64,000 bases of DNA from Catenaria anguillulae PL171 (Eukaryota; Blastocladiomycota; Blastocladiomycetes; Blastocladiales; Catenariaceae): contig MCFL01000052.1 in assembly GCA_002102555.1 (NCBI GenBank), positions 62,001 through 126,000 on the forward strand, in the 5' to 3' direction. A program made the translations under genes and the position numbers. Shown here piece after piece: positions 1 through 53,020 of this stretch (positions within the stretch are counted from its first letter, which is position 1; each line of letters begins with the position of its first letter). The notes below the pieces were generated by a model. It searched no databases. It worked only from the letters and a program-made list of their open reading frames with translations, and was not told where the DNA came from.

Positions 1-1561
1 GCGACCCTGATGCCGCGGCCTCTGCGCTCGCCCGGCTCTGGTCCGCCGCCGTAATAGCAGGCGGAGCAGCAGCTGTATTGGTGCGGCCGGCGAACCGAGG
101 ATCCACGGGCTGCGGCGGAGGCGGCGGATGCACAACCGACGCGGCAGCGTTGGGGAACGTGCCTTCGGGAAGCGGGGGCTGGTGCACGTGCGGAGGTGGG
201 TGGTGCGCACTTATGGTCCACGTGGGCGGATGCATTTGGCTTGCGAGTGCAGGTGCGTGGCTCGTGGTTTCAGATGCGCTCGTGGACCTGGAGCGCAGAT
301 GTGCGTTGATGTTGGACAAGGTCGGAGGCGAGTGTGAGGGATGACCCGGAATGTGGGTCGACTCCGGGTTTGGTTGTGACAGTTGGAGAGACGATAGCGG
401 TGGTTCGTACTTGACACGGTCACGTTCAGAGGATGTCGTGGGTGTGGCAGAACGGTCGGAATTACGTGCCGCCATGTCGGTTACGGACGGTGTGCGGCTG
501 AATGGCTCGCTTTTTGCGACTAAGGGCATAGAAGTGGATTCAGGGCTCGCGACCCGTCGTTGGCCTGGAGGGAATATACTCGTAGGCGGCGAGGGACGAG
601 TTGTGGCATTTGCATTGGGCTCTGCCTTGATATTTGCGTTGAGCTCCGGTTTGACAGTCACCGCCTCTGCCTTTGCCGCTGATGGTGCAGGTTCAGGTGG
701 AGGTGGAGGTGGCGGCGGCAAAGGCGCAGCGCGATCCAGCGCCTCGCTGACCCTCTCCCGCGTCACCTTGTACATCAACAAGACCAAATGCAACGCTGCG
801 GCAGACACTGCACCCTCTTCGGATTGCGCATCGCCCGCGCACGCAATGTCATCCGACTGAGCAATCACGCGGAAATGCTGCTGGCGCTCTGGGTGCTTGC
901 GGGCCTTGTCCATCCAAAACTCAATGCCAAGCATGTCCAGGTATTGCTTGGCGTTCTTGAGGAGGTCCTTTTTCGCGAGCTTGACACGCGCCAGATCGCC
1001 TTCGCAGTCGATGAGGGAGTCATGGTACTTGTTTGTCACGTATGAATACGAATAGTAGGTATCTAGGTCGACGTATTCGTGCGGGCGGCGACGGCGGGAA
1101 GCACCACTGGGTCCAGAAGACGAGGACAATGACGACAGCGATGATGACGGCAGCATGCTGGTAAGAAACGAAGGTTGGGCGGGGGAACCTGTAGCTGGTG
1201 CCGTTGACGTGGAGGCAGCAGGAGCGGGAGCAGTGGGAGGGCGCGAGCGCTTGGCCCTGGGTAATGCTTTAGTGGGAGCTGCAGCGGCAGCAGCTGGTGC
1301 TGGGGTCGAAGTCAAAGTGGAGCTGGACGAGGAGCCGGTTCGGCTTTGAGTGCGAGACGGCTTGGGCTGGGCACGGTCCGAGGGGACGGGTGCGTCTTGC
1401 TTATCGATATCCATATCAGAGTCCGAGAGCAGCGAAATGACACATTCTGGCTCGGATGCCTTGCGCGACTTGGATTTCTTCGTGGAGATAGAGCATGTGG
1501 TCCCGGACCCTGCGATCGAGGACTTGGAATGCCGGCCAGTCGATGCCGCCGGGGTCGTCAT
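1..1561 (-). CDS. Partial low-complexity protein with one dsRBM-like module (family member, 3' end outside window)
   Basis: The frame opens at an ATG at 1561 and stays open to base 1, so at least 520 codons are present and the C-terminus lies beyond the left edge. Residues 1-165 are Ser/Pro/Ala-rich. Residues about 170-270 form the only ordered part: charged helices, a short strand segment (QQHFRVIAQ), then GDAQSEEG followed by an Ala/Leu-rich helix (AAALHLVLLMYKV). This order matches the end of the dsRBM-like modules in the family members at 5.4-8.2 kb and 27.8-29.7 kb. The remainder is disordered, with a poly-Pro run and Pro/Ser/His-rich tracts. No CPC cap or RS domain is seen in the available part. 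The function is unknown; family assignment is by eye. A weak resemblance of the helical stretch to INO80-type subunits was also considered. Confidence 0.6.
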   Translation of the reverse strand, partial: MTTPAASTGRHSKSSIAGSGTTCSISTKKSKSRKASEPECVISLLSDSDMDIDKQDAPVPSDRAQPKPSRTQSRTGSSSSSTLTSTPAPAAAAAAPTKALPRAKRSRPPTAPAPAASTSTAPATGSPAQPSFLTSMLPSSSLSSLSSSSGPSGASRRRRPHEYVDLDTYYSYSYVTNKYHDSLIDCEGDLARVKLAKKDLLKNAKQYLDMLGIEFWMDKARKHPERQQHFRVIAQSDDIACAGDAQSEEGAVSAAALHLVLLMYKVTRERVSEALDRAAPLPPPPPPPPEPAPSAAKAEAVTVKPELNANIKAEPNANATTRPSPPTSIFPPGQRRVASPESTSMPLVAKSEPFSRTPSVTDMAARNSDRSATPTTSSERDRVKYEPPLSSLQLSQPNPESTHIPGHPSHSPPTLSNINAHLRSRSTSASETTSHAPALASQMHPPTWTISAHHPPPHVHQPPLPEGTFPNAAASVVHPPPPPQPVDPRFAGRTNTAAAPPAITAADQSRASAEAAASGS

Positions 1562-1879
1562 GGCTTGGTTGGATTGGGTACGGAATGGTCGCAATCGAGG
1601 CCTTTCGGGAATTGCACAAAGTTCATGTTCTTCTCGCTACTCCATTCACATCCAACTATCATACTGTTGTTCGTGATCGTTTTGTCATGATAGTACGAAC
1701 TCAGGAAAGGAACGTCGATCAAGCGCGACGTGCACGCACAGGCAGAGCAAGAGCAGCCGGCGCCAGTGTGCAGAAGACCCCATTCACAGCACGTATTTCT
1801 TTTCCTCCAAGGAGTCAGCAATACATATTTCAAGAAAAAAGACCCTTAGAGCTGTCGCAATACCGTCCCCTCTGATTCT
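1562..1879. other. Spacer between divergent loci
   Basis: This stretch lies upstream of the minus-strand gene that begins at 1561 and before the broken plus-strand sequence. Short ORFs occur on both strands but none has recognisable content. It may hold the promoter of the minus-strand gene. Confidence 0.3.
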
Positions 1880-2786
1880 GCTGGCCCTCGCCACTCGGTC
1901 TTCTCCAACAACCAAGAGGATGCGGTCTCGCCGTCAAGAAGCCCTCGACTTTTTGTCGCGGCCAATCCATCCACGCCATGACCGAGCAAGGAGTGACTCA
2001 ACCTGCGCGCCGACCATGCCAAGAACGCGGAGATTCTCTGTGCGTACCAGTCTGTTTCCCGCCTCCCCGAACTGATTGCCAAGGTCCACTCTGTGCTGGT
2101 TGACAACTGCGGTGTGAGTCCAAGGAGGACGCTGACGCCGCCATTGCCCTCAGCGAGCTTGCTCTTAATGGTCAAGATTTGCGCTTCGTTGCCGGTGATG
2201 CCAAGCTGTGTTTCTGTTGTGGTTCCCTGGACCACTTGAGAAGTACATGCCCTACACGCCCTCAAGCCAAGACTTCGTCCTCCGTTTACTGACTGTCGTG
2301 GTTACTTGTGACGAAACAGACCATATCCCATCGTCGACGCAACAGCCATTCAAGGGGTCATCGTCGTCCGGCAGTGCCCCCACTTCACCCAGTCTGCTCC
2401 ATACCATTCGCACGTGCAACGAGAACACCATTCTCTGCGCTCATACGCGCAAACTCGTTGCCATCGTCAAGCTCGTTGCCCGTGCAGGGATCCTCCAACT
2501 TTTCGACTACATTGAAAAGTTTGTCAATGGAGTATTTGACTTGCTACACCTTGGCGGCGTTCACGAAACACGGTACCTTGGCCAGCTCAATGGCACTGAC
2601 GAGCATGTCGCTGTATCCCGCTTATTCGGCTCCGCAAGTGCATCATTGGGTGTTTCCATGACCTCGGTCGGCATTGCTTGCGCATCGGCAAAGCTTCATG
2701 CGTTGCTCGCGCATGTCCCAGCATACGATTTGGAGGAAGAGTCTGGTGCACTTCTTGTTGTCCACGTGAAAAAGTCGTCAAGTTGA
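1880..2786 (+). pseudogene. Broken sequence with a CCHC zinc knuckle (gag-like or nucleic-acid-binding remnant)
   Basis: A coding-looking stretch (RLPELIAKVHSVLVDNCG) is followed, one frame off, by KEDADAAIAL and then a perfect C-X2-C-X4-H-X4-C zinc knuckle at 2209-2250. A stop follows soon after at about 2290. A third frame stays open to 2786 without recognisable content. The frame change between the first two pieces and the lack of a long ORF suggest a decayed or mis-sequenced gene. CCHC knuckles are typical of retroelement Gag proteins and of some cellular RNA-binding proteins. No reverse transcriptase or integrase motif was found nearby, so the source stays open. Confidence 0.4.
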
Positions 2787-3124
2787 ATCTGGTGGAGGCT
2801 GCCAATCAATTGCAAGTGGCGCGACTTGCCCCAATCGTGCCCAAAGTACCCACTGCTCCGAGCCTTGGTGTTGTTGCCGCGTCATTCGACAGCGTGCGCC
2901 GAGCTGGTAAGTCCATCAACGGCAATTCGGGGGTTTTGTCATTTGAAGGAATCTGCAAACATTTTGCCACGTCGTCAATCGCTCGCCGTTGCTCAGTCAC
3001 TCTGTCTTTGCGCCGTTCGACGAACAAGGTCGTGTGGATCGCGTTTGGTTCGGGTGGCGACCTGTTCGCTCACACGCATGGTGCCTCGGCATCATTGGCG
3101 CTGCATGGGATCTTGTGGCGGTTG

Positions 3125-4126
3125 ATGCAACACCAAGAAACTCGTGGCGAGAGCGAACGCATGCTGAAGTCGATGGCAGACGAGAGCCACCATGACGGCA
3201 ACCAAATTGCGATCAATGCGTTTCGCAAGTTTGCCGCGGACCAGAGCTTGAGTTTGAGGACTGAAGCGTTTATACCTCGAAAAGAGGTATCCGCGACTTC
3301 CTTGTCGCTTATCCAGCCATTCGCAACCCATGTAAAGCGCAACCGTTGGACCAGGGCCAACAATGGTGACTCACGTAACCGTGACAATGTGTCCAAGTCG
3401 AGCGCGGTCAGCGGACATCGGCGCGACCAACGCTCCTCCCACCGCAACAACGGCAACCGCACTAAAACATCATCGAATCCGCGTACTTCTCATCATGATG
3501 GGTACCATCAGCGCACTATCAACGATCGCATACGAATGCAGATGCAGCCGCAGAAACATCAGCTGCAACATAGTGACGGCCGCCTGTTTGGGCCGCCAAC
3601 CAAGCGGCAAGACTCCGCCATGTCGGCTACCTTGGCGTCGCAAACGCCAACCCCGAATCCCACCGCAGTGTCTCCAGGCACCATTCCTTTCCCACCTGCC
3701 CGCGCTAGCTCGTACCCACGCCATTCGGTACCGGCCCGCTCAATCCTCAAGGTACAACGCCAACCTGATTCGTTGCGTCGTGTGACCAAGTCAGTCCAAT
3801 TCAAAACTGGCGACCAGCTCGAGCAAGTGCGCCGCATCGAGCATGTCCACGACGTGATGGATCGGCTGCCTGAGTCACCCTCTGATCCCGCCCCAACCCT
3901 GTCGCTTTTCGCCCAGTCGCATTTCGACTGGGAGCACGCGAAGGGCGAGTTGGCGTTTGCGCAATCGGTCGTGGCCCGGGAGGCGAAAGCGTGGCAAGAT
4001 GAGCTTGCAAGCCAGCAGCAAGTTGTTTCGGCAAAAACGAACCGAAACCTCGAGTTGTTGCATCAGCTGTATGTTCTGAAGCTACGCAACCTGGTCAAGG
4101 ACAAGAGTGGCGGTGTCTCGAGTTGA
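3125..4126 (+). CDS. Basic, disordered protein with candidate PP1 docking motifs (SILK and RVxF-like)
   Basis: The frame is open from 2678, but its first ATG is at 3125, giving 333 residues. Residues 90-180 are rich in Arg, Asn, His and Gln. At residues 206-209 the sequence reads SILK, and at 222-226 KSVQF, which fits the RVxF-type pattern. In several protein phosphatase 1 regulators a SILK motif precedes an RVxF motif. KSVQF is followed by an L-x-x-V-R-R-I stretch, as in some PP1 regulators of the PNUTS type. The last 100 residues are predicted helical (Glu/Ala/Gln-rich). No folded domain is recognised. Whether this ORF is the 3' exon of the zinc-knuckle locus upstream cannot be told. PP1 binding is inferred from motifs alone. 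Confidence 0.45.
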   Translation: MQHQETRGESERMLKSMADESHHDGNQIAINAFRKFAADQSLSLRTEAFIPRKEVSATSLSLIQPFATHVKRNRWTRANNGDSRNRDNVSKSSAVSGHRRDQRSSHRNNGNRTKTSSNPRTSHHDGYHQRTINDRIRMQMQPQKHQLQHSDGRLFGPPTKRQDSAMSATLASQTPTPNPTAVSPGTIPFPPARASSYPRHSVPARSILKVQRQPDSLRRVTKSVQFKTGDQLEQVRRIEHVHDVMDRLPESPSDPAPTLSLFAQSHFDWEHAKGELAFAQSVVAREAKAWQDELASQQQVVSAKTNRNLELLHQLYVLKLRNLVKDKSGGVSS

Positions 4127-4844
4127 AGGAGGTTGGTGTCGGAATGCGCTCGGTGTTTGGTAGGTGATTGATTGAAAGTCATACATAGCAAGAAAGGCTT
4201 TGATTTCCATAAGTTGGTGACGTGGTGCTTGTCTTTTACTTCGTCTTCTTCTTCTTTTTTACATGTGTTTTGACGTTTGACTGTCCATCGTTTTGCTTCG
4301 TTTGTGTTCGTTTGATGGCGGCGAGACGGATTGAATCAAGGAATACATACAGACTGAATCCAAGGCAGAATGACAGGGTATAACTGAAGGCAAGTGCGGT
4401 GCTCTTGACCGCCTTTGATGAGTGTCTCACTTCCAATCAATCACCTTGAGAGCAGTCGACTCTCTGCCGATAGGTCGCGTTCTTACGCCTTTTTAAACAT
4501 CGATATTCGCAAGATATTTCCCCATTCGGGCACGGCACTGTATCCCACCATGTCAAGCACCCCGTCGCCAGCCCCGTGCAGGCCACTGGCAACGTCCGTG
4601 TTGCGCATCATGGAGATCTACCTGTCTCCGACGGAATGGCGCCGAGGCCGGCAATTCACAGCAACAAACTGGCAACGGACAATCAGCCAAACTGAAGAGG
4701 TGATGGTAGGATATATATACATGTACACACGAACATGAGAGGATTCATCACACAACCGATGCTGACGCATTCCGGGCACACAATGAGCGGAATCACGAAA
4801 AGTAACAATCACTACGCCATATCACGACATTCGGAGGCAAGACA
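4127..4844. other. Convergent spacer
   Basis: This lies between the end of the plus-strand ORF at 4126 and the minus-strand fragment ending at 4845. Its first part is T-rich and fits a 3' UTR. No convincing gene is visible. Confidence 0.3.
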
Positions 4845-5245: not shown

Positions 5246-5433
5246 CAGAGTCTGGCTGTTCGTTAATGTGTCTCTACATTCATCATGTTCATACAGTACA
5301 CATGTCATCATTGGACGGGCCTGACTCGAAAAGAAATCGTGCACAATAGACGCCACCAGGTCGGCACATCCAAGTACATCAGAAAAAGACAGACACACCA
5401 CCTGCACGGCATGACGTTCCGCTACCTCAGTCC

Positions 5434-8183
5434 TCACTGCTTGCCTCCCGCAGCGTGCTGCTGCTGTTGCCGCTGCGCCTGCCCTTGTGGTGTCTGCGGC
5501 GACTCGGGCACGGTCTGCCCTTGGCCTTGGTGCCCAACGCCTCCGCCGCCAAGCAAGACGGCAGATTGCGATTGCGCTTGCCCGTGCACGCCAAATGCGC
5601 TCACGCCCGCTGGCGTTGCAGGCTGCAAAAAGGGTGCGCCCAATGCGAATGGCGCCGGCATGCCGGGCATTGCGGCCGTGGGCGGTTGCAGCAAGGACGA
5701 GACGAGCGTGGACAGAATGGTGAATTGCGATTGCAAGTACTGCACCGAATGGGTGAGCTTGTGGATGTGTTGCGAGATGAGGGCCATATCGGCGGCGGCC
5801 GGTTGGGCGGTTGGTGGTGGTAAAGCAGCAACAGCAGCGGCCGCAGGCGTCGAGGGTGGGAGCATTGTCGTGTCTGATGGGGCAGATGCCGACGATGGAG
5901 GAGGCAGTAGCGTTGAGGTGCTAGTGGACGTTTGCTCGCGGTCGCGACGGCTCAAGGAAGATGCACTTGACGACGTAGGTGCATCGTTTGCCTTGGGGGA
6001 CCGTGAACGGAGGCGGGACCAACTCGAGTCGCTTCCCGGCAGCTGTTCAGTGGCCAATGGTCGGGAGGACGACGCCGTCTTGAGAGCTGGGCGAGCAGAC
6101 TGCGAACGAGACCTGGATCGGCGCCGCGCTTCACCGACGCCATTCATCGACGATAACGAAGTGCTGAGCCGCCTCTGTCGCTCGCGATGGTCTCGAGTAC
6201 GTTCCTCGTAGTCGTGGGCTTGATTGCGGGACTGGTGGCCCCTGCGGTCGCCCCGCTGGTTCACATCCCCATCCATGTCATCGTCGTCATGACGCCTTTC
6301 CTTCCTCGCTTCCCTTTCACCCTCCCTCCTGAGCTCGTGGGCAGCGTGATCACGGTTCCAATTCCGATCCACGCTGCGTCTCCTGTGCTCGGACCCGAGA
6401 TGGCGGTCCCAATCCTGTTGATCCACGTCCCTCCTGGCATTGCGCTCGGGAACGCGAGCACGGTACTGATCGCGACTGTGGTCGTTGGCCCACTCTCGCT
6501 CACCGCGCGCCACATTCCCGTCCCTATTCCCGTCCCAGTCCCTGTTCCTGTCCCACTCACGATCGCGATCCCTATCCCTACCTTCATCCCGATCCCAATC
6601 CCGGCCGCGCTCGCGATCGCTGCCATGCCTCCTGTCCCTCTCCCACTCGTCCCTTTTTGCATCTGCCAACAAATTGCGATAATGCTTGTTCTTGACCTCC
6701 CCCTTGACCAGCAACAAGATCAAGTGCACATACGCGGCGCGTTTAGCCTCCGACTCAGAGTCGCCATCGCCAAAATAATTTCTGGAATACGTTGTGCCTG
6801 TAGCGCGATACCATCCCTGGGGCAATCGCACGGCATTGATCTTGAAGAGCTGCATGACGCGACGCAAAAACACGTTGGGCTGATCAAGCAGTGTGGCGAG
6901 CGGAAACTGGGTGGCGAGCGGCCACGTGCGCAGGTAGGCAAATTGCTCGGCATAGTCACGCTCGAGGGCAACCAGGTCTTGACGGTGAGGCGATGGATCG
7001 ACCACGGCTGCTGGCTTATGCGCGGATTCGGCATCGGCATCGGCATCGGCGGCTTGACCTGTGCCATCCTGGTTGTCGGCGTGATGATGGTCGTGGCTCG
7101 ACGAAACGTGGTGCTGATCGGCGTTCTTGCTGGAACATGCAGGGGCAACATGATGGCCATTCAGCTTGTCGGTCAAGCTCTTGAGCAGCAAGTGATAGAG
7201 GGCCACGCGCCGTGCGTCCAGGAGCGTGTGTGCGTCGCCAATCACCGAGTAATAAGGGGAGGTGATTGTGGCGCGGACAAGGTACAGATCTTGAACCGTC
7301 ACGCTCGAGTAGGCAATGTGATGGAATGCCCCGTCAAGGAGGGCGTGCTCGCGCAAGGCACGCATTGGGTTGTCCAGGACAGACGAGCGAGTGTGCGCAA
7401 GGTGCTTGATGGCAGAAGGGTAGCTTTTGTCGAGCTCCGTTTCGGTGGCTGCGTGCGGAAAGTCTACCAAGGTCGGTGCTCGCTGGAATTAGAAAAAAAA
7501 AATCAGGGGACGGAGGGAATGCTTGCAGTGTTGCCGCTCAAGTAGAGGGGAATAGAGATGGCTGGAATTGATTCGTTGGTTGGAATAGAGTGTGATATGG
7601 AAATACCCTTGGATTCGACTCGACAAAACAATCCGTGTGCTGGCTCAGGAGGCGCACTTAAAGGTCGAGGAAGCGAATTGGCCATGCCCGTGAGCAGGGG
7701 CGGAAGATTGTCCATTTCGTCGGCCACCAGGGCCAGTGCCAGATGGCGGTAGGCATTGTCGAGTGCTTGGTCGGGCGTGTCGCCCTGGCCGGCAAAGCTC
7801 ACGGTTTGGTCATTGTAGGCGAGCGTGACGGCGCGGTTAAAGTAGCCGAGGCGGCCTGAAGTGGACGGCGCAAGCGAGAGTTGCTGCGAGGAGGCAAAGT
7901 CGTCGTCCTCGGAGACGGCACTGGCGGCGTGGGGGCCGATCAGGTCGGCGACAAGGAAGCGGGGATGGTCGGTGAAGGCAGTCTCGAGATGGGGAAGGGA
8001 TTGGAGCAGGCACTCGAGATGGTTTGCATGGTGGCCGCGGATGAGGATGGCCAGGGTGGGTGAGGCGACCTTTGTGCTGCAGGGGCACTGCGAGCGGGAC
8101 GGGCGGCCGTCGTCATTCGGGTGCTCGGTGCTGGCCGTGCGGCGGAAGCGTGTGGTTGGGGACAAGGAGGTGGAATCGGCCAT
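5434..8183 (-). CDS. CPC-cap / multi-dsRBM-like / Arg-rich protein (family member)
   Basis: Best model: exon 8183-7658 (MADSTS start) joined in frame to 7478-5434, about 856 residues. CPC lies at residues 33-35. Three modules ending in a G-rich turn plus Ala/Leu helix follow: about 45-165 (AGQGDTPDQALDNAYRHLALAL), 200-280 (LDARRVALYHLLL) and 370-445 (GDGDSESEAKRAAYVHLILLL). The helix pattern resembles the dsRBM G-x-S-K-x-x-A-K-x-x-A-A signature. Residues 455-620 are rich in RD/RE/RS dipeptides. The C-terminal third is Pro/Ala/Gln-rich with a poly-Gln patch and lacks the HPMVSMW module of the other members. The splice junction is chosen because it preserves frame and phase 1. Nuclear RNA binding is inferred. 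An ATG at 8186 would add one Met. Confidence 0.72.
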
Positions 8184-8677
8184 CATGGTGGGAAACCTTG
8201 GTGAATTGTGAATTGGAGCAAAGCGAAGAATGTATATTAACATGCACAGCACATGGATACGGCAAGCAAATCATGTGTGCATGTATCATTAATAGTATAA
8301 TATATTTGCTAGATTCATCGTTTATTTATCGCAGAGATGTCGCTCGCGATCACTGTTTTTTTTGGCAGAGCTGGATCGGCGACCACACCTGATCTATCCC
8401 TGTTCCATTCGTGTTCCCGTTCCACACATGTTCTCATTGCGACGGGATCGCGATTCTTTGTCTCTCATCTCATCTCATCTCGACGACAAGCCCATGCCAT
8501 GCTGCCATGCTGCCATGCTGCTATGTCCACAAGCTGACTCTGGCCACTTGATGCATTTCTCCTGAGCGCCTGCGTCAACAGCCAACAGTGCCCACCGGCT
8601 TCATCTCGTAAACCCGCCCCTCGCCCGCCCCTTCAGCCTCGTACCAAGTCCTCTTGGCACCTCGCATACCTGTCACA
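8184..8677. promoter_or_regulatory. Divergent intergenic region (family gene / VTI1)
   Basis: The minus-strand family gene and plus-strand VTI1 begin on opposite sides of this 494-bp gap, so it should hold both promoters. The half next to the minus gene is AT-rich, around 8230-8340. Two small tandem repeats are present: TCTCA units at about 8463-8481 and CCATGCTG units at about 8492-8525. Confidence 0.45.
8492..8525. repeat. Short CCATGCTG tandem repeat
   Basis: About three and a half imperfect copies of an 8-bp unit lie in the VTI1 upstream region. Confidence 0.7.
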
Positions 8678-12380: not shown

Positions 12381-12381
12381 A

Positions 12382-15680: not shown

Positions 15681-15690
15681 GCAACAATAA

Positions 15691-23576: not shown

Positions 23577-23975
23577 ATTGTAGATCGGATGTGGTCTAGG
23601 CGGAGCGCTGAGCTCGTTAACTTGAATGCTTGTCTATTCTAATTCTGGGCGACTGTTTGAATGAAAAAAGACACACTCACGACAGCCACTGGAATCGACC
23701 ATCTTCCAGCGAAACTGGAAAGTAAATAAAAGATCGAAGAAATTCGAACTCTAATCATGCCAAGTCTCGTGGAATGGTATGCCAATCCCCGCCCTCGCTC
23801 CATGGCTCGTATGTAGTATGCCCGTGACGACCGTGATCGTGGCCGTCCACGTGGGCCTGGCTCGTATGCGGGTGGCCGGTCGCGGGAAACTCGATCGCGG
23901 GTCCAGGTGTCTTACCCATTGTCATTATGCGAGTTTCGGCGGTGGCGGCCGTCACTCAAGTCTGCGGGTCGATGT
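23577..23975. other. Convergent spacer
   Basis: This lies between the ankyrin-like gene and the last exon of the broken family member on the minus strand. A minus-strand His-rich ORF at 23755-23955 may be residual sequence. Nothing is assigned. Confidence 0.35.
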
Positions 23976-25319
23976 TCATCGAATGACGTCTGGTCGGTAC
24001 ACATTGCCATTATTTTCAGGCCGGTATACGTCAAACTGCGGGTCGGGGCGGTACATGTCCGTGGACGAGGGTGGCAAGCGATATCCCGTGGGTTGGCCGG
24101 GGCGTTGTGGCAGCTCAATGGACGGTCGGCGGGATGACCTCGGAGATGGTTGCCGGCGCCGAGGAGGAAGTGAATCAGGAAGGTACGTGTCCATGTCGCC
24201 ATAAACCTCCGGCTGAGTCATGAGTTTTGTGAGCCAGTCGAAGTGGAGTTCTGCATGAAGGGCACAACAAAGTGATGAGCAAAGCAGCTCAAAAACGACC
24301 AGGCAAACAATCATGGACCAGGCCGCATGTCAATGCAAACTTTGCCCGCCACAATCTACTTCCACCGACTGGGCTCATACCCTTGAACGGCGAAAATGCA
24401 CAGTTGCAAGAAGACGGCGTCCAGCTGCCTTTTGCGGCTCTGAACCAGCTACCTGGAAAACTGTGACGGGTCGTTGCTGTGACAGTATGAACTTCGTCAT
24501 CGAACTCCAGGTGTGGGTACCCGATATCGAGCCGGTCGGAAATCACGGCGACCGAATGGCGTTTGACATGGACTCGCGTAATCGGCGAGTTCGCCGATGA
24601 ATGGGGCAAACGTCTTCTTGAGGTGCTCAATGGACAAAGTGCCATCTACGCAATACGTATGCAAATCGCCAGTGACAGAACAGAAACCGAGATGCAGACA
24701 TGGCCGGCGTACCTAAACAGTCATCCCTTCCATTGCTGGCAGATGCTGGCTTCGAAGAAATGAGCGGTGCCAGCCCTAAATGATTCACTGCATCTTGTAC
24801 CCTTGGCGCCAACTTGGGATCCGCTGAGAGTAGAATGTGCGGCAGGTAGTAATGTGCGGCCCTTGTTGCCAGATCCTGTTTCCGCCCCTGCCCGTCGCAT
24901 CGAATGACGGAACCATCGGCCGTGACCAACTCGGACAAGGCGAGTTCCACGTTGTAGTGGTCGGCCCTTTGGTGGTCGTGACCGTAGTGGACGCGTTCGT
25001 GAATCACGGCCGGCTTGGGGCAAGCCGATTGGACGCAGAATGCACTCGAGGTAATGATAGATGGCGACAAGCTTGCGCACGTGTCCCTCAAGTTCCGGAT
25101 ATCGAGAGGTGAGTCGGCTGCGTGCGTTCCAGTGGTGCCGGAGAAAGTGGGCAGGACCCCGTCGTCCAACTGCAAGGGTGAATCATGCACGTGCGCATCA
25201 ACGCATCAATCGAGTGAGACGGGCGTGTCGACGCATGAGTGAGTTGGAGGAATCCAGACGCAAGGCGTACCTCCGCCGCCGAGACGTGTTTCGCATGGGC
25301 ACAGGTAGATGAGGACCAT
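23976..25319 (-). pseudogene. Broken CPC-cap / dsRBM-like family member
   Basis: Exon 1 (25319-25271) encodes MVLIYLCPCETRLGGG and ends in phase 1 at GTACGC, exactly as in the intact members. Exon 2 starts at 25169 and reads AHFLRHHWNARSRLTSRYPELEGHV, then, after a one-base frame change near 25015, VIRCDGQGRKQDLATRAAHYYLPHILL. After the next intron (GTACGC...GCGTAG) come RLDIGYPHLEF and VTATT, then in a third frame AVFLQLCIFAVQGYEPSRWK, an in-frame TAG, and IVAGKVCID. The last exon begins ELHFDWL and encodes a short Arg/Ser/Pro-rich tail ending at 23976. Every segment of the family is present in order. At least three frame changes plus one nonsense codon indicate a pseudogene or poor consensus. 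Confidence 0.7.
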
Positions 25320-26449: not shown

Positions 26450-27325
26450 TTAGACATCGACGATCACGAGCGCAGTCACCCTGCGCACGGCCACATCCTC
26501 GTCACGATCGCGAATGAGCTTTTCGACCTCGGTGCGGCCCATGCCGAACTTGACCCTTGCCGTCCACAGGTCTGGGTGACTGAAGCTATCCATGGTCATA
26601 AACGATGATCCGCCGCGACGGTCCCGATCGCCCCTATCCCTGTCCCTATCCCTGCGCCCGCCGGGCAATACCGACACACCGAGCTTATCCCTGATCTTCT
26701 TTGGCGGAATCACAACCAAGGCATTCGTCTTTCCCAGCTGCTTTTGCCGCTCGATAAACACATGCATGCGCATGGCTTCGATTGGGTCGGCCACCCACAT
26801 TTCCATGAGCTTGTGCTTTGCAAAGATGCGCCGCAAGTCCGGGTCGAGCGTGGCAAGTGCATTCTTGATCTGATCGGCCGTTGGGCGGCGGAACCTAGGT
26901 GCACGCGGCGGCGGTGTCGGACTACGGTTGCGCGGCGGCGAGTAAGTTGCGTCTCGCCGGGCACGACGGTCACGGTATCTGTCGCGGTCGCGGCCACCAC
27001 GGCCACGCGACCGGGACCGCGAGCGAGACCGCCGGTCTCGAGTGGTGCGAGTGCGTGACCCGGACCGGCTGCGAGAGGCACGGTCGTCGCCTCGAGCGCG
27101 GGACCGCGACCGAGAGCGCGAGGGCGTGCGAGACCGGCCATGTGCAGACACGAGTGGCTGGTCAACGTCCATTGAGCTGCCGCCGTGGGCCGTCGAGCGG
27201 GGCAGTGTGGCACGCAGGTCGTGAACCTGGTCATCGCCGTGGCGGTCGGGCTGAGCCTGGTGGTGGTGCTCCGTGGGCGACATGGGCTCGGCGTGCCCGT
27301 TGCCGTTGTATTGGTGGTCATCCAT
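26450..27325 (-). CDS. Short RS-rich family member lacking the dsRBM-like N-terminus
   Basis: From the ATG at 27325 the ORF encodes 291 residues. Residues 20-60 are His/Asp-rich. Residues about 65-140 are dense in RS/SR/RD dipeptides. The C-terminal 140 residues form the family's terminal module: FAKHKLMEMWVADPIEAMRMHVF, a VVIPPKK strand region, then EDVAVRRVTALVIVDV at the very end. This matches HPMVSMWVKDP...AVRRVTARVLL in the 44.3-46.5 kb gene. No CPC cap or dsRBM-like repeat lies in the 500 bp upstream before the neighbouring gene ends. The protein therefore corresponds to the last exon of its relatives alone. The frame is open further upstream without an ATG. RS domains mark nuclear RNA-processing proteins. 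Confidence 0.72.
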   Translation of the reverse strand: MDDHQYNGNGHAEPMSPTEHHHQAQPDRHGDDQVHDLRATLPRSTAHGGSSMDVDQPLVSAHGRSRTPSRSRSRSRARGDDRASRSRSGSRTRTTRDRRSRSRSRSRGRGGRDRDRYRDRRARRDATYSPPRNRSPTPPPRAPRFRRPTADQIKNALATLDPDLRRIFAKHKLMEMWVADPIEAMRMHVFIERQKQLGKTNALVVIPPKKIRDKLGVSVLPGGRRDRDRDRGDRDRRGGSSFMTMDSFSHPDLWTARVKFGMGRTEVEKLIRDRDEDVAVRRVTALVIVDV

Positions 27326-27825: not shown

Positions 27826-29743
27826 TCAATTCTCCAAGCCAACAATGACCTTGGCCGTCGCCAATCGCACTGCTACCTCGCGGTCCTTGGACCTCCCTTC
27901 CCGGTAAAACATGCGATCGCCGTTGCCCAGCTTGACTGCGACACCAGCCACGTACTCGCCATCACGTTCCTTGACCTTGACCTGCACCGCCTGGCTGGTC
28001 AAGCTGAACACAAACATCTTTGCCGCAGCCTCTGGGTCCTCGACCCACTGCTGCACCATGGCATTGGCCTCCAACGCCTGCCGAATCGGCACGGCACTGT
28101 CAATCATGGCCAACGCGCGATCATACTTTTCGGGATCCTGCGGCACACGCACTTCAACAACCATGCTGCTCGAGTTTGCCGGCGACCCGACCGACCCGCG
28201 CCGGCGCGACGACTTGTCCCTTGACCTGGACCGCGACCGTGACCTGCGGCGGTCCCTGGACCTACTCCTGGACCGTGAATCACGGCGCGACCTGCGGCGA
28301 TCCCTCGACCTCGACCGCGACCGCGACCGGCTTCGCGACCTGCTCCGCGAACTGCGGCGCGACTTGCGGCGGCGGTCACGCGACCTCGACCTGGACCGCG
28401 ACCGCGACCGCGAATCACGGCGCGACCGGCGGCGCGACCGACTGCGGGACCGCGACGAGGACCGACGACGAGAACGGCGCGACCGCGAACGAGACCGCGA
28501 ACGAGACCGGGAGTCACGGCGGCGAGAGCGCCGGTCGCGCGAACGCGAACGAGAACGGCTGCGCGAGCGTGACCTCCGCCGGGCGGGGACGATCGGCGCG
28601 CGGTTCACCATCCAGGCCGGGCGGGCGGCAAACGAGAGAGCTTTAAAGTCCACCTCTGTGTGATAAGCAAGCGGGGGCGTGGTCACGTCAGACTAGCCAT
28701 GACGTAAGGGCCTTCGAAATCGAACGTACCGGTGTTCAAATCCACCTTGAGGGACCCATCGGCAATCTGAGCCCACACACTCGGCTCGTATCCCTGCACG
28801 GCCAAAATCACCAAATGCAACAAGGCTGCTTCGCGCGCATCCGTGACTTGCGGCCCATGGCCGCAGCAAATGACGTTGGCCGACGTGGCCGTGGTTTGCC
28901 ACTTGCCGCCGTCTTGCGTAAAGAAGCCGAGGAACGGGTAGGCGATTTTCAAACGATGGATCATGAACATGGGCGAGTGACGGTTCAAGTCAAAGCCCTT
29001 GTCGCGCAACTTGAAGATCTCGTCCTTGTACGTGTGGCATAGGTTGGCCGTGGTATAGAGCACATCGGGAGCGGCTAAAGACCACACATTCAAAAGTTGG
29101 CGGCTGCAAGCACAAGGCAAACAACTAAACGTGCACCAGTGAGAGCGTACGCAAAAACTCTTTCCGATCTGCCATGGGCTCTGGCTGCGAAATAATCGCC
29201 GGCGGCAACTCGAGCGCATCCACCTGCGCCTGCACGGCTTCGGGCAACGGCACACGACCCGAAATCAGAATCAACAAGGCATGCATCTTGGCCGACCGCT
29301 TGGCCAGCTCCTCTTCGGCTCCCTGGCCGAGGCATTGGATCGAACCAGCAGCTTCCGACAGCGTGAGTTGTGCATCGAACCCAGTGGCTGCGCGCACACA
29401 TGCCATGGAAATGAGCTGGGATTCTGGGACACCTGCGGGCCACAGACGGCGAAGCAGGTAGTCGATGGCTTGGACCTTGTAAATATGGCGATCGAGTTCG
29501 GGAAAGCGGGAAACGATGCGGGCAATGTCCATCCAGTGGAAGGTGGCGAGGAAGGACGGGTTGATCTTGGACGCTGGGTCTTGCACTGCAAGTCCTGTGG
29601 AACAGTGACACGGTCGACTAAATCAGTCGCTGCTGCACGTCCAGCGGCCAAGCCATGCGAAACATGCACGATCGATCGAACGTACCACCCTGGGACTCGC
29701 ATGGGCAAATGTACGGCGCAGGGGCCGGGATTGCCTCATCCAT
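27826..29743 (-). CDS. CPC-cap / two dsRBM-like modules / RS domain protein (complete family member)
   Basis: Four exons (29743-29686, 29594-29151, 29074-28730, 28655-27826) join in phase 1 throughout to 558 residues. Exon 1 holds the cap APYICPCESQ (CPC at 13-15). Module 1 (about 25-140) has HWMDIARIVSRFPELDRHI and ends CLGQGAEEELAKRSAKMHALL. Module 2 (about 190-270) has RLKIAYPFLGFF, WQTTATSANVICCGHG and AREAALLHLVILAVQG. Residues about 300-445 are almost pure RS/SR/RD. The C-terminal module contains NAMVQQWVEDPEAAAKMFVF and ends EGRSKDREVAVRLATAKVIVGL, which closely fits the dsRBM second helix. Introns use GTACGT or GTACGC donors. RNA binding in the nucleus is inferred from fold-like pattern and RS content only. 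Confidence 0.82.
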
Positions 29744-33200: not shown

Positions 33201-34832
33201 GACTACGTACAAACTTCAACCTGAAGTGGCGAATCAAACACCTTTTCCCGCCGTTTCTCCACCGTGGCTGCAATCTTATTTATTGCGTCTGACGACGGGT
33301 CCTTGAGAAGCTCTGCAATGATGGCGTGCGTCTCGGACATTACTGGAATACTGACACTTGATTGCTTGCTGTTGACGCTGGCAGATAACTTTCGAGGTGT
33401 CGCAGGAAGACTGCTGATTTCCGCCTCGCCCAGCCGACGAGTCATGCGCTCCAGTGTCTGCTGGCCAATTCCATGGACACTGGTTGCAAACCGCTCGTCA
33501 CTTGGCATCAACTCGCCGCGACACACTTCGTGCCAATATTTCACGGTCCTTTCCAGGTACCGGTTCGCATACACCTTGGATCCAGCGGCTGCTGCGACGA
33601 ATCCCACCAGAGCTGCGGGAAGGAGAATGACCCATGATCCTTGATCGACCATGCCGATGATGGTTAGCACCATGTTTGCTATCATGGCTGCGGCCGACGC
33701 AAATGTCAGACCTGAGCGCAACATGGTGACTCGAGAGTCAAAGTACGGTTGCTGCTGGATCAGCCGAAATGTCAGATAGAGCAGGCCAATCGACGTCACA
33801 ATCATGTAGAGCCAGATTGCTGCGCCTGATTGGATTGTTGGTGTTACGGCGTCCAAGACGACAAAAACGATACGCAATGCCATGGACCTCAGCTCAACTT
33901 GACCATGAGCCTTTGCGCTGGGGCTGGTTGAAGTGGGTGATGTTTCAATGAGCTATTCCAAGAGGCAGATCAGATCCATTACCAGTCCGTCATGTCATGG
34001 GTGATTGACCGAAATCATTCCTTCCAAGGCAGAGCTCATACGTACCACCACAGACGCCAGCAGAATCAAGGGAACGAACATGAATAGCCCGAGAGTGTTG
34101 AAAAGGACGAGCGGCAAATGTGGACCTCGAAAGCATGGAACATCAAACGGCTCGAGAGTGCCGTCGCTGACGGAACAATTGATACCGCCGAAAAACAGCG
34201 TGGCGATAGGAATGTTGAGTGTTGAGACAATTAATGTGAACAAGATTCGAAGCGCCTTGAGCGCTGAAATGGGGACCTTGGTTTGTCGATGCATCAGCAT
34301 GCTTACAACTGCTGCAAGTGTAATCGTAGAAAACACCATCACCAACGCTATTAATCCAATCACTGCTGGGTCAGCCCGCATGTTTTCTTCATCACCCAGT
34401 TTTGACTGAACGAACCCAACACATTTGCAATCGAAAAGCTGGTGTACGTATCCAGGAGTCGTGTTGGCTCCATAAAAGCTGCCAGCGCACAAGGAATGTC
34501 GTGGTGAATGTGTGGATTGAGTGCGAATGAGAGCAGTTGAAAGTCGTCAAGCAGCTGTAGGAATGACATGATTCAGCCGTCAGTCTGGCTCCATGCGTTT
34601 GCATGGCGGATCCAATGCGCGCGGGCATCATTCGCACCGTCAGGATCCATGTGACTGAATTGGGCATCTCATTGTCTGTTGTGGTGATGTACGCGACGGC
34701 AAAAATCGTGTCTTCGACAGCGTTAACAGGTAGCACGCTCTTGAGCTGATGGCTGACTCGAGAACGAGCGGCCGCTGCCATCATCTGTTCGGCGCTCCCC
34801 TTGTCTTGGTACATGTAGTCGTTCGACGCCAT
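30239..34832 (-). CDS. Tiny-macrocysts (TmcB)-like multi-pass membrane protein
   Basis: Exons: 34832-34638, 34554-34046, 33952-33211, 33143-31543, 31471-31176, 31092-30968, 30903-30239. All phases agree except that 34554-34046 is one base short of frame, implying one missing base; the corrected length is about 1377 residues. The N-terminal third has several transmembrane helices (LQLLDDFQLLSFALN, VIGLIALVMVFSTITLAAVV, IWLYMIVTSIGLLYL). A helical-repeat region follows (VRFVRDNPTEVQVVLALQLLERG, LLEKSPRDKTVLRAYASFL), as in TmcB/TmcC. After a disordered linker, three more membrane regions and LQMLLKIPKK, VTSGNRRYEMQSWLVF and a last membrane pair complete the pattern. Homologues occur widely in protists and zoosporic fungi; their role is not established. 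Sensory or mechanosensory signalling is speculative. Confidence 0.8.
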
Positions 34833-44256: not shown

Positions 44257-46474
44257 ATGACTTTGGAAATCCCTCGAGCCTGTCCGTGCACACAGCGCCC
44301 TGGTACGTCGCCGCCGAAACGCTGTCCCGGACCTCGTTCAAGGTTCTCACGACTTGACTGTCCATGCCTTGCACAAAATTACTTTATCAGGCGTTGGCAC
44401 CCGGCAGCAACGCCTCACCTCAACCTACCTCCTGATCCACCACGCCGCAGACCGCGGTCGCCTTTGCACTCGCTTTCCGGAGCTTGATGGCCACCTGCAC
44501 ACGTTTCCAATCATCAACCACTTTCTGTCCAAGTTCCACCCGGACGAAAAAGACATGCCCGCAGGCACCTACACGATCCAATCGCCCTCGTCTGGCGAGC
44601 CCATTCACGTGCGCTTTGGGCCCGGCCAAGTCATTCGCCTCGTGACTGCGCCGTCGGTCGACACGGACCGCGACCGCCCCGACTATTACACGACCGATAT
44701 TTTTGTGCACCCGCGCCTCGCCAACATTGCGTGCTATGGCCAGGGCAGGGGCGATTGGCAGTCGCAGCGCACCGCCAGGCTGCACTTGTTGCTCGTGTTG
44801 ACGGGTGGCAAGATGGAGTTGCCCGTTGGATTACAACGTGCCGTCGATGATATGCAGCTGGGCCCGCTCTTGTCATTGGTACCGCCGCAAGCCGCCGACG
44901 GGTGGCAGCGGCGCACGTTATTGAGCGCAAACGACCCAACGAATCACAATCAAGTCACACAGGCGTATCTCGAGTCCCAGTTTGCTACCGAGCTTTCCGC
45001 GCTGGCCGAGGTCGGGTTCGATTTGGCAAAACACACAGCGGTGTTTATTTTGCACCGGTTGGGCGTGCCGTATCCGCACTTGGGTTTTACGCAGCAAACG
45101 CCGCCGTCAGGGAAAGCGGGGAGTGGAACCGGCACTTGGCAAGTGACTGCAACAACCCCGCACGTGGTGTGCTGTGGACACTCGAATGATCCGGCAAAGG
45201 CACAGGATGCTTGCCTGTTGTACTTGGTCGTGTTGGCAGTCCAGGGACACCAGCCGAGCATGTGGGACGAAATTCGTGCGGGCAAGCATAAGGTGGACTT
45301 GGTGCCTGGTATGTACCTTCACATTTCTCTATTCATCTTTGCCTCAATTGCGCAATAATAACTCGCATTTCGCTTTGTAGAAATGGACGTCAATGCCCTC
45401 GTCGACCCTTCACTCAATGGCGCCTTTGAGAAAAAATCCCTCGCCGCCGCCGACGCAAAACCTTCCTCCTCGTCTGGCAAGCCACACTGGATCGGGTCGC
45501 CCTCTTCTCACTCACACCACTCACGCCGCTCCTCCCCTTCGCACCACCGCCGCCGGCGCTACTCGCGCTCGCGCTCACGTTCGCGGTCGCGGTCGCCACC
45601 CGTGCGCCGCTCCCGCCGGTACCGCAGCCGCAGCCGATCCACGTCGCCGCCACCCGCGGGCCACCGCGGTCGCAAGACCGCTCGATACATGAGCCGCAGC
45701 CGCAGTCGAAGCCCGAGCATCGGCTCGCGTGACGGCGGCGGCAGGGACAGGAGACACCGCGACCGGTATCGCAGCCGCAGCCGGTCCGTGAGCCGCGGGC
45801 GAGGGCGCGACCGTGGCCGGTCGTCGCGTCGCAAAAACGCATCGTACTCGCCCATCCCGTCTGGTGGACCTGCCAGCCGGTCAAGGTCACGGTCTCGATC
45901 ACGGTCGTGGTCTAGGTCGCGGTCACGGTCTCGGTCTCGCTCTCGGTCGCCCTACGGCACACGCAGGACATTGTCGCGCCCAACATCTTCGCGCACCAAC
46001 GGCGCCTCGTCCGCCTCATTGCCCTTGGAAACGGCGCTGCCCACGTACGACCCACGCGCACTCGACAAACACACACAACGCGCACTTCGGATGCTTTCGA
46101 GCGACGCGCAGCGTGCGGCCATGGCTGCTCATCCCATGGTGTCCATGTGGGTCAAGGACCCGATTCAAGCCACGCGCATGTGGATTTGGGCACACACGGA
46201 TGTGGCCTTGTCCAAGCGCGAGACGGTCCGGATGGATCGTCCCGTGGATAATGGGGCGGGCACGAGTGCGTCGTCAGTCATGGTGGCGTTTGTCAAGGTG
46301 CCCCCGAGTGGCGAGCTTGTGACCGAGGTGGGAACCGATGAACCAAGTGCCGTGAGGAGGGTCACGGCCAGAGTATTGTTGGAAATGCCCGGACTTGGCG
46401 CCCCAGCAGGGAAGGGGACGAGTCCCGCCGGATCGGCCGCCGGCGGAAGTGGCGGAATCAAGAGGGAAAGGTAG
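44257..46474 (+). CDS. CPC-cap / two dsRBM-like modules / RS domain protein (complete family member)
   Basis: Three exons (44257-44302, 44391-45308, 45381-46474) join in phase 1 to 685 residues. Exon 1 is just the cap MTLEIPRACPCTQRP. Module 1 (about 25-150) includes CTRFPELDGHLHTFPIINHF and ACYGQGRGDWQSQRTARLHLLL. Module 2 (about 215-310) includes ILHRLGVPYPHLGF, VTATTPHVVCCGHS and DACLLYLVVLAVQG, ending PSMWDEIRAGKHKVDL. Residues about 375-545 form a dense RS domain. The C-terminal module (about 555-655) includes AAHPMVSMWVKDPIQATRMWIW and AVRRVTARVLLEM. The two modules share one exon here, while in the 27.8-29.7 and 49.3-51.7 kb genes an intron splits them, suggesting intron loss. Function unknown; nuclear RNA binding inferred. 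Confidence 0.85.
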
Positions 46475-48866: not shown

Positions 48867-49323
48867 GGTGATTGGTGACGGTGAGCTTTAGCGTCGCGGT
48901 GGAGCGTGAAGATGGAATGAGTGGTGCGTTGAAAGCAGGGGGCCGAGTGGACGGGTCACTCTGCACGCAGGCGAAGTAGGACGGGGGGGGGGGGGGGCTC
49001 TTTCTATCTGGCAGCCGCTTGGCCTATGTTGGTTTTGGTGGTTGGGGTTGGGAGGTCAATCCTTGCCAGTGAGGCGTGTGTGATCGGCGGGCCACAGCTC
49101 AACCAAGTCGATAAAAACAGAATAAGTACTGCAACACATTAGGCAGTAATTTACATCCCCGACTGCGGGATTCTGTCCATGAAATCAGTGCATGTACCTT
49201 GGGCAGTCCCTCAAGGAGCGCAACTTGAACCCTGACACACCCGCGGCAGCACCCTTCGCCAAGCATCCTGTGGGCCCCTCTCTGTCTTCTGTTTCGATTT
49301 CGTTGCCGCAGCACACCATCAAG
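48867..49323. promoter_or_regulatory. Divergent intergenic region containing a G15 tract
   Basis: This lies upstream of the 49.3 kb family gene and of the minus-strand hypothetical gene. It includes a run of 15 G at 48983-48997. Confidence 0.4.
48983..48997 (+). repeat. G15 homopolymer
   Basis: Fifteen consecutive G on the plus strand lie about 330 bp upstream of the ATG at 49324. Such a run can form G-quadruplex DNA and is also a common site of length error in sequencing. Confidence 0.95.
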
Positions 49324-51683
49324 ATGGCTGATTCTGTTACAGAGACGGCGGGCAAGGAAACCTACATTTGCCCCTGCGAATCCCAATGCGGTATGTATCC
49401 CGCCGGCACCACACCCAGCCAACGAACCAGCCGCCTTGACCTGCATTGCTGTGCGATCTGCTCACTGTGAATGACTTTCATTAGGCGGCATTCAGGGCTA
49501 CCGCCTGCCCGACCGCATCGGACCTAGCTTTCTGACGGTGCAACACTGGTATGATCACTTCCGTCCCACTTTCCTCCCTTGATCCAAACACAACTCGTCC
49601 CCTGCAACCTTGTTCACTGATGATTCGTCCCCCGAACCACACTTGCATGTAGGCAAGATCGCTGCCGCATTGTCCAGCGGTGGCCAGAAATGGACAACTG
49701 CTTACACACCTTCCCCATCATCAAACACTTGCTCTTCCGCATTCTTCCCGACACGGACTCGCCAGAGTGGCGAAAACGGCTCAGTCGGGTGTCGTCCGAC
49801 TACGCAACCGGCGCCGATCCGCCCAGCATCAACATCACGCTGGGCGACGGCCAAGCCCTGACCATGCGTACTGTTTATGAAGACGATGCGACGGGGCTTG
49901 CGAGCCGCGGGAACGCAAAGACGGATTCGTGCACCAGTACCTTGTTTTTGCACCCGGAGCTCGCAAAGATTGCTTGCCGTGGGCAGGGCAAGAAGGATGC
50001 GCTGTCGCAGCGGTCAGCAAAGTTGCACTTGTTGTTGATTTTGATTAGTGGCCGCGTGCCCTTGCCCAAGGAAATCCAGGACAATATTGACAAGCTGGAT
50101 TTGCCGCCGCCGCCGCCGAATGAGCCCCCCGAGCCAATTGGCAACCGTCCGGAATTCTTGCGTATGTTCCTGCACTCTTGACACTTTAACCCACTTCATG
50201 TTCCCATTCTGATTCGACCGCCTGTGAACCTCATTGCCGAGGGCAGCCGCCAGCGACACGGATCTGTTCACCACCACTCGGCATCGCAACAAGTATGCCA
50301 AGGAAATCGAGGAGCTCGGCAAACTCGGCATCAACATCAACCGCCACTCGCCCATCTTTTTGCTTAAACAATTGCGCATTTCCTTCCCGTTTCTCGACTT
50401 TTCGACCAATGGCCGCGACTTGTGGATGGTCAAAGTGTTCACGCCGCACGTTGTGTGCTGTGGCCAGGGCAACGAGGTGGTCAATGCCCTTGAAGCCGCC
50501 CTGTTCCAGTTGGTGATTCTCGCCGTTCAGGGACTCGAGCCGAGCGCATTGGACGATATCAAGGCAGGCAAGGTCCAGATTGACTTTACTCCCGGTACGA
50601 TGCCCTTTGCCTCGCCCCTGTTCATGCTTCACTTTCTTGTGCTTTGGACTGACACGCCATCATGGCGATGCCGTCCCCACAGAACTCGACACCGATACCA
50701 TGGTCAATGGCCGCCTGCGCGACTTTGGCCAGCGCCCAAACCACCGCGGGTCGCCCAACCGTTCACGCTCGGCCTCGCGGTCCGTGTCGCGCGACCGCTA
50801 CCGGCGCCGCAACGCATCACGGTCACCATCCCCTTCGCGCACATCGCGTCAAGCCCGGCGCGGCCGTGAACGTGAGCGTGAGCGCGACCGCCGCAGCAGG
50901 AGTCGCAGCCGCAGTCGTAGTCGTAGCCGCAGTCGCGAGTATCGCCGTGGGGGAGGAGGCAGGGATCGCGACCGCGGATGGTCGCCGTCGCCCGCACCAC
51001 CGTCGTCGCGCGCGTCGCGGCGCGGCCGGTCCAGGTCCCGTAGCGCGAGCCGAGAGCGCGCAAGACACAGGAGTTCGAGCAGGAGCCGTGGGTATGGTGG
51101 CGAAAAGCGCAAACGTCGCGGATCGCCGTCCAGATCCAGATCCAGGTCGCCACCGCCACCTGCCGATCGCCGCCGGGATCGCGATCGCGAGCGCGAGCGT
51201 GAACGTGATCGCAAGGGGAGGTCCACTCGTGATGTGTCGCCGCCGCCGCCGCCCGCATCGTCATCGTCGGCGCGCCAACAAGACCAGCCGTTTTCGCCCG
51301 CAGCAGCTTCGCGCCAATCGTCTGCGCGTAACCTGCCGCTCGATTCCAATGGCGTGTCGCGGCCGTCGTCGGCGTACGCGGCCAATGCTGGCGCTGAGCT
51401 TTCGGTGCTGCCTACGGAAATGCGGTCCATCATGGCCAGGCATCCCATGGTATCCATGTGGGCCGCCGATCCCGTCACCGCCATGTGCATGTGGGTGTGG
51501 AAGGAGACGAAAAAGGATTTGGCCGCGCACGGCAACCCGGTCCAGATCAACCGCACCGTGGACGGGTCGTTTGTGATTGCCAGCGTGCGGTTGCCTGGTG
51601 GAAATGAGGTCCAGGAGGTGGCCACCGAGGAGAGGATGGCAGTGGCAAAGGCGACGGCCAGGGTCATTTTGGGAGACGCTTGA
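49324..51683 (+). CDS. CPC-cap / two dsRBM-like modules / RS domain protein (complete family member)
   Basis: Five exons (49324-49390, 49485-49548, 49653-50161, 50247-50594, 50683-51683) keep frame throughout and give 662 residues. Exon 1 encodes MADSVTETAGKETYICPCES (CPC at 16-18). Exon 2 adds GYRLPDRIGPSFLTVQHW. Module 1 continues with CRIVQRWPEMDNCLHTFPII and ends ACRGQGKKDALSQRSAKLHL. Module 2 has NRHSPIFLLKQLRISFPFLDF, FTPHVVCCGQG and EAALFQLVILAVQGLEPS. Exon 5 holds a long RS/RD domain and the C-terminal module (MARHPMVSMWAADPVTAMCMWV, ending AVAKATARVILGDA). The intron after EFL and the one after DFTP match those in the 27.8-29.7 kb gene in position and phase, direct evidence of common origin. 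Confidence 0.85.
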
Positions 51684-51959
51684 GGTGCACGATGTGTGTT
51701 GGTCTTTTCTCCCGGGATTCATGTGAGAGCCTCTGGCTTGGCTGGTTGATGATGGTTTCCCAATTGTTTTTGTTTTCGTTTGTTGTTGCTTTGCTGTTGC
51801 GTTGTAGAACCTACGGTACATTTATACAGTATTTATTTGCCACAGAAATAATGAAAGAAAGCTAGCGTCATCGAAAAAAAAGAAAAAAAAAAGAAAAAAA
51901 AAAAAAAGAAGTATACTGTCCAGTGAATAGAAACCGATTCAAGCGAGGATACAATCTTG
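51684..51959. other. 3' flank with A-rich tract
   Basis: This lies downstream of the family gene and is T-rich, then A-rich. A nearly pure A tract with a few G interruptions spans 51873-51910. Confidence 0.5.
51873..51910. repeat. A-rich low-complexity tract
   Basis: Long A runs broken by single G bases lie between two convergently transcribed loci. Confidence 0.9.
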
Positions 51960-53020
51960 TTAGAGGAGGGCTCGGCCATTGCTCGGTCGGCAACCTCTTG
52001 GCGCCGAGCAGAAGCCGCAAGCCAAACGGGCGGGCGGGCGGGCGATGTTGCAAGATGTGTTGGGCGAGTTGGTAGCGAGCCGATTGGTGTCGGCTTGGGC
52101 GTTGACGGGTCGGCTGGCAGTGAATGGCGCCCAGGACGGGGAACAGGCTCCCAAGTTTGTTTCGATGACGCAGCCTGTGGAGTGTTTTTGCGGGCGCCTG
52201 AAACAGTCGCAGCACCTGGATGAACGAGGGTGATGGCAGCAGTAGTTGACAATGGCAAGGTCGAGTTGTGTTTGCCAACCAATGTAGCGAGAGCGCCGAG
52301 AGCTTTCCGCTGCATCTCACTCCAACCAGAAACGTCAACGTCTAATCCAGCGACGGAAATCGAATTGGTTACCGGCGAGGATATTGAAATGCCTTGCTGC
52401 CTCAAACTGGCGCCAGCAGCAGCTTCCTCTTCACGCCCTGACGGATCGCGTGCTTGTCCGCATCGGTCACGCCTCTCAAGAAGCGCTTTGGCTTCGGCGA
52501 CAATCATGTAGCACGAGCTGCTCGGTGAGCGCGCAGAGAGCATCCAGCGCCGAACCTGCTGTCGCCCGACAAATCGTGCGAAAGTCTGTTCCTGCCGCCA
52601 CCCGAACCAGCGCCGTCGTCCGCGCGCCTTCTTGACGGTCGTTGAACTCGACCAGATCAACCTGCGCACGCGCTTAGTGTACTGCCCGAACTAACGGGGA
52701 ATCGGTCATGTTGGGCAGAATGAATGCCCTGCGAAGCGTTTGCACCGAGGTAATTGGAAAATGGGTCTTCTCATTCAGGGTATGCTCGTCGAAATGTCGT
52801 TGCACGCAGATGGGAACGCCATCCTTTTTGAGCTTTTTCGAGAGCGTGTCCACAACGTCACTGTTCGGGAAAACTGACGAACAAATAGGATCGGGGGACG
52901 GGATAGACGGCAGAGCACAGGGATGATTAAGTGAGTATGTAGGAAACGACTCACCATATTCTTGGTGAACTCAAGCACTTGACATGATTTACTCGTCGCA
53001 TTCACTGTAAATGATGACAT
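51960..53020 (-). pseudogene. Possible degenerate family member
   Basis: Minus-strand coding pieces lie in different frames. An ATG at 53020 starts a short exon ending at a GTGAGT donor near 52955. Next comes VVDTLSKKLKKDGVPICVQRHF with THFPITSVQTLRRAFILPN, whose end resembles LHTFPIIKHLLFRILPDTDSP of the 49.3 kb gene. Then VDLVEFNDRQEGARTTALVRVAA and SALDALCALTEQLVL recall the module-1 strand and second helix. Another frame carries SGWSEMQRKALGALATLVGK. No CPC cap or RS tract is seen. Similarity to the family is weak and judged by eye. The 3' limit is unclear. Confidence 0.3.

Follow-up and report, generated by a model that had tools for sequence, protein, structure and literature searches.

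Which proteins are encoded by the repeated loci found in a stretch of the genome of Catenaria anguillulae PL171 (Blastocladiomycota), and what might they do? C. anguillulae is a nematode-parasitic fungus of an early-branching lineage. The stretch (64,000 nucleotides, bases 62001-126000 of contig C406 in an assembly of 41.07 Mb and 457 contigs; hereafter, the window) had been described in an earlier note as carrying a local, high-copy family of putative nuclear RNA-binding proteins with a Cys-Pro-Cys (CPC) cap, modules resembling the double-stranded RNA-binding motif (dsRBM), an arginine/serine-rich (RS) domain and a C-terminal module (C-module). We find that the family is multi-copy, apparently undescribed and built on an architecture that is real and conserved; four of its window loci (A, C, D and E) are real genes under constraint. 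The most likely reading is that of a scaffold related to serine/arginine-rich (SR) proteins, with dsRBM modules of type B.

Gene models and shared architecture

Seven window loci, labelled A to G, belong to the family (below, L0xx denotes compared stretches and Cnnn contigs):

49324..51683, plus strand: gene A, complete member, 662 amino acids (hand-spliced model, allele comparison); exons 49324-49390, 49485-49548, 49653-50161, 50247-50594 and 50683-51683
44257..46474, plus strand: gene D, complete member, 685 amino acids; exons 44257-44302, 44391-45308 and 45381-46474
27826..29743, minus strand: gene E, complete member, 558 amino acids; exons 29686-29743, 29151-29594, 28730-29074 and 27826-28655
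26450..27325, minus strand: gene C, 291 amino acids, single exon, only RS domain and C-module
23976..25319, minus strand: locus B, pseudogene; its pieces of the cap, module 1 and module 2 lie in different frames
5434..8186, minus strand: gene F, remote member, 857 amino acids, two-exon model, donor site uncertain
2..1636, minus strand: gene G, remote member, open frame running to the left window edge, one module-2-like stretch

The models of A, D and E, spliced by hand with GT-AG introns, contain no internal stops and share one order of parts: C-x-C cap, module 1, module 2, RS domain and C-module. In A, the CPC cap is encoded by exon 1, module 1 by exon 3, module 2 by exon 4, and the RS domain and C-module by exon 5. 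Tblastn comparisons link the three proteins to one another (E values of 9.5e-52 for A-D, 5.5e-37 for D-E and 3.9e-24 for A-E), and the family proposed in the earlier note is real, its coordinates and motifs being right. Phase-1 introns lie in all three genes between the cap and module 1 and between module 2 and the RS/C-terminal part; A and E have another phase-1 intron in common, separating module 1 from module 2, and A carries an additional intron of phase 2. A related stretch occurs in both module 1 and module 2. The possibility that the copies are artefacts of RS low complexity was ruled out, since the modules match outside the RS part. The modules of A, C, D and E are located as follows (rows from which the profiles were built, except where other evidence is named):

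44438..44860, plus strand: module 1 of D
49654-50103, plus strand: module 1 of A
29206-29541, minus strand: module 1 of E
44966..45286, plus strand: module 2 of D
50279-50572, plus strand: module 2 of A
28755-29048, minus strand: module 2 of E
46103..46387, plus strand: C-module of D (profile search and structure model of 46061-46390)
51408..51677, plus strand: C-module of A (HPMVSMW)
27835..28095, minus strand: C-module of E
26453..26848, minus strand: C-module of C

Of six loci previously regarded as clear members, four (A, C, D and E) stand as intact and unambiguous, but B is a pseudogene and F a remote member. An intact B was ruled out by its frame changes, an in-frame TAG and a 38-base gap separating pieces in different frames, which is not an intron because it is too short compared with the intron sizes seen here. 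F has a CPC cap, a weak module-1-like stretch at 7701-7832 (E 0.1) and module-2-like stretches at 7183-7437 and 6697-6966 (E 1.6e-4 and 3.8e-4 with a profile not trained on F), while the profile search of the window gave no C-module match in F. G, not listed separately before, has its module-2-like stretch at 776-949 (E 7.9e-4). Up to four additional partial copies had also been suggested; outside the seven loci, nothing in the window reached E 0.01 with the three module profiles (best 45 rows each).

Purifying selection between haplotypes

Stretches of the window recur on contigs C416 and C453 with 85-98% DNA identity. We take these two contigs to be the second haplotype and, given this identity, do not count their matches as extra genes. 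The alleles of A, D, E and C differ by 61 synonymous changes over 1,647 sites and by 15 non-synonymous changes over 4,887 sites (pooled dN/dS 0.083; Fisher P 6e-24), and these four genes are therefore under purifying selection between haplotypes. The individual dN/dS values are 0.02 for A, 0.11 for D, 0.08 for E and 0.22 for C. None of the four alleles used contains a stop or a frame-breaking change, a 37-base gap at the end of the A allele being the edge of the compared stretch. The D allele is the L033 copy; a further copy, L035, has scattered single-base indels, which we read as a noisy contig end (that of C453).

About 3.2 kb of the window (21605-24805) is missing from the matching site on C453. 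Besides the 3' part of B (positions at and below 24805), this stretch contains an ankyrin-repeat frame (21897-23573).

Members beyond the window

With A residues 1-336 as query, 34 exon-level matches at E ≤0.1 were obtained, on contigs C406, C416, C453, C301, C93, C114, C433 and C427, with E values off the haplotype contigs from 2e-8 (L038) to 0.025. Nine of thirteen matching stretches were read in frames. Beyond the window, C301 has five loci, C114 two and C433 one, which together with the seven window loci make at least 15; near copies of one C301 locus and one C114 locus lie on C93 and C427, respectively. The expansion described in the earlier note is thus clustered and multi-copy but not purely local, at least eight loci being on three other contigs. 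In the module-2 tree, the window members form no resolved group.

In most outside loci, pieces of the cap or module 1, module 2, the RS domain (in the loci other than L040) and the C-module are readable. The exceptions are L044, with module 2 only, the minus-strand L039 locus, without RS domain or C-module, and L038, without a C-module match. L042 (C114) is a single stop-to-stop frame of 913 amino acids containing every part; it is uninterrupted over 774-3512, versus two to four introns in A, D and E, and a retrocopy or intron loss is possible. At 6827-8833 of L037 and 6442-6777 of L041 (C301 and C93), the DNA is 66-68% identical to the ankyrin-repeat frame of the window and adjoins a family member, and the two may form a linked pair.

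The dispersed members look less constrained: dN/dS is 0.50 between L042 and L045 and, for L037 versus L041, 0.36 in one exon and 0.62 in another, values to which decay or assembly error may contribute, given ten frame-breaking gaps in L045 and one stop in the L041 exon. This is one of the observations that would fit a fast-turnover, lineage-specific family engaged in genome conflict, for instance with mobile elements, whose RS domain would serve for nuclear entry. The clustering of copies, the pseudogene B and the haplotype difference at B also agree with it, as does the failure to find a homologue in a database that includes Allomyces and Blastocladiella proteins. Nevertheless, the strong constraint on A, D and E between haplotypes is unlike an arms race, and the database searches also miss the copies of C. 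anguillulae itself, so that they do not establish lineage-specificity. We regard this explanation as improbable.

Database searches

In the searches made, the family matched no described one, in agreement with the earlier note. Residues 1-305 of E gave no match at E 0.01 among 6,786 candidates from the protein database, and eight paralogues gave none at E 0.1 among the 8,000 candidates sharing most words. Neither search returned a family protein of C. anguillulae, though the database has SPT5 of the same genome; it may be that the public annotation lacks the family genes or gives them other lengths, or that they fall outside the database's length limits. Because the species' own copies were also missed, these results do not show absence from other species. 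No description of the family was found among the matches listed from the open-licence PubMed Central (PMC) literature, in the parts of those articles covered.

Elsewhere in the window, a frame at 31390-33177 has a TmcB-type TPR match (E 1.2e-13), and the neighbouring 33206-33952 has a weak SLATT_1 match below the cut-off.

RS domain

The RS domain of a classical SR protein has at least 50 residues at 40% or more R+S. RS domains had been claimed for the family, and A, D, E and C all exceed 40% R+S over more than 50 residues, reaching 72%, 74%, 96% and 68%, respectively, in their best 50. Five of the 55 window frames of at least 200 amino acids (family included) exceed 60% R+S, four being A, C, D and E. 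F, in its charged tail, and G have 48% and 40% R+S, with few RS/SR dipeptides (six and one in the best 50 residues). The N-terminal parts of A, D, E and F matched neither an RRM nor any Pfam family at E ≤1, and since no RRM was found, the proteins are not classed as classical SR proteins.

Fold of the modules

The dsRBM-type fold put forward in the earlier note holds for the C-module in its predicted structure. The model of the D C-module (46061-46390) has predicted helices at 3-10, 15-22 and 27-32, followed by an alpha-beta-beta-beta-alpha core, which suggests a dsRBM fold with an extra N-terminal helical extension. For modules 1 and 2, the model (pLDDT, the predicted local distance difference test, 44.7; cap outside the modelled stretch) gave no usable structure match.

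Sequence profiles place none of the modules among dsRBMs: (i) a Pfam search of the members gave no dsrm (PF00035) match; (ii) the modules gave no profile match to a small dsRBM alignment; and (iii) module 2 gave none to the C-module. The two PF00035 matches in the genome at E ≤0.001 (C268:5950-6126 and C447:162014-162220) both lie outside the window, the former corresponding to the mitochondrial ribosomal protein mL44. Candidates taken as noise were the PDB matches of the module-2 profile (to globins, with E from 0.017 upwards), weak Pfam matches (best 0.004, Acyltransferase, in one of nine members) and Pfam matches of the E and D C-modules at 0.021-0.18, below cut-offs, plus others at 0.096 and 0.25.

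It is conceivable, if doubtful, that the fold of modules 1 and 2 is of an alpha/beta type unrelated to the dsRBM, stabilized for example by the C-x-C and His residues, and that only the C-module is dsRBM-like. The low-confidence model and the profile searches (ii) and (iii) are in line with such a fold. However, the secondary structure of module 2, itself of low confidence, runs helix-strand-strand-helix, and in our own reading of the alignment its conserved G-x-G and A-x-x-A-A-L are placed as in dsRBM beta3-alpha2.

RNA-contact residues

GPxH is an RNA-contact motif of dsRBMs, and in our own alignment, which for modules 1 and 2 rests on the presumed fold, it is absent from all 28 module sequences (8 of module 1, 11 of module 2 and 9 of the C-module). 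The RNA surface of dsRBMs is described as being made up of helix 1, loop 2 and helix 2, the last of these carrying a KKxAK stretch (PMC6486548). Placed in the same alignment, the three lysine positions of this stretch are K or R in 0, 1 and 2 of 8 module-1 sequences, 0, 0 and 6 of 11 module-2 sequences, and 2, 1 and 0 of 9 C-modules, only the last position of module 2 being basic in a majority. Net charge is uninformative either way, as dsRBM control rows range from -1 to +9. As most of the KKxAK residues are lacking and there is no GPxH, the RNA binding suggested in the earlier note is not implied; nor are the proteins filed under PF00035, since neither the sequence profile nor the contact residues of that family were found.

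Genuine dsRNA binding, for example by RNA silencing or surveillance cofactors, could still be achieved if non-canonical basic residues and a number of weak modules acted in concert with the RS domain. The predicted fold of the C-module and the arginine at the last lysine position in those six module-2 sequences speak for this, and a fungal Dicer survey (PMC12663654) suggests that sequence profiles can miss divergent dsRBDs. The near-complete lack of basic residues at the first two lysine positions of every module, and of the GPxH loop throughout, makes it unlikely.

Cap and putative zinc site

Across the cap and module 1 of eight paralogues (rows of L037-L040 joined by eye), seven residues are invariant in A numbering: C16, C18, H43, P55, P76, G154 and H169. 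Four of the seven are Cys or His, versus 6.3% C+H in the rows (binomial P 5e-4, uncorrected, in a test chosen after the pattern was seen). By eye, F keeps the CPC and a His at similar places, and the second His seems to be missing from B. The natural reading of this conservation is that the C-x-C cap and the two invariant module-1 histidines form a putative zinc site.

A proposed scaffold model and comparison with known systems

We tentatively favor, at a little short of an even chance, a paralogous family of nuclear SR-related proteins acting as a scaffold with type-B dsRBM-fold modules. By the mechanism that we infer, the dsRBM-fold modules would have lost their dsRNA contacts and would serve as protein-protein or dimerization surfaces ('type B' use), while the C-x-C cap and the two module-1 histidines would form a zinc-stabilized unit. 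The RS domain would provide nuclear location, phospho-regulated contacts and weak contact with RNA, and the whole protein could act as a scaffold in pre-mRNA or ribonucleoprotein particles. A type B dsRBD without dsRNA binding dimerizes by domain swap through an N-terminal extension, as reported in PMC11582362, and the helically extended C-module may function in a similar way. The fuller proposal, that of an undescribed ribonucleoprotein scaffold class of at least 15 loci, the best-kept strongly constrained, in which a zinc-clasped tandem of degenerate dsRBM folds, an RS domain and a dimerizing C-module organize nuclear RNA processing by protein contacts and not by dsRNA binding, is rather unlikely. 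If true, it would mean that a family had been missed by domain profiles and by the protein database used, and that, in an early-branching lineage of fungi, an RS-domain protein re-uses a dsRBM fold that has few of its RNA-contact residues left; the zinc-plus-dsRBM arrangement would be open to testing.

Type B dsRBM domains include Staufen dsRBD5 and Loquacious dsRBD3. The family differs from these two in having no profile match, extra helices before the core, other partners in the chain and an RS domain. The predicted helical N-terminal extension on the dsRBM core of the D C-module nevertheless resembles that of the Staufen SSM-'RBD'5 dimerizer. A, D, E and C are similar to SR and SR-related splicing proteins in their RS domains, whereas the N-terminal parts of the family, unlike those of SR proteins, have no RRM match. 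SON reportedly combines RS repeats with a dsRBM, in a layout that differs from the one described here. Finally, the family recalls the zinc-containing extended dsRBD of fission-yeast Dicer in linking a set of Cys and His residues to a putative dsRBM-type module, in what is presumably a nuclear RNA protein. In Schizosaccharomyces pombe Dicer, the zinc motif is a C-terminal extension (PMC7827160), whereas in the present family the C-x-C of the putative metal site precedes module 1.
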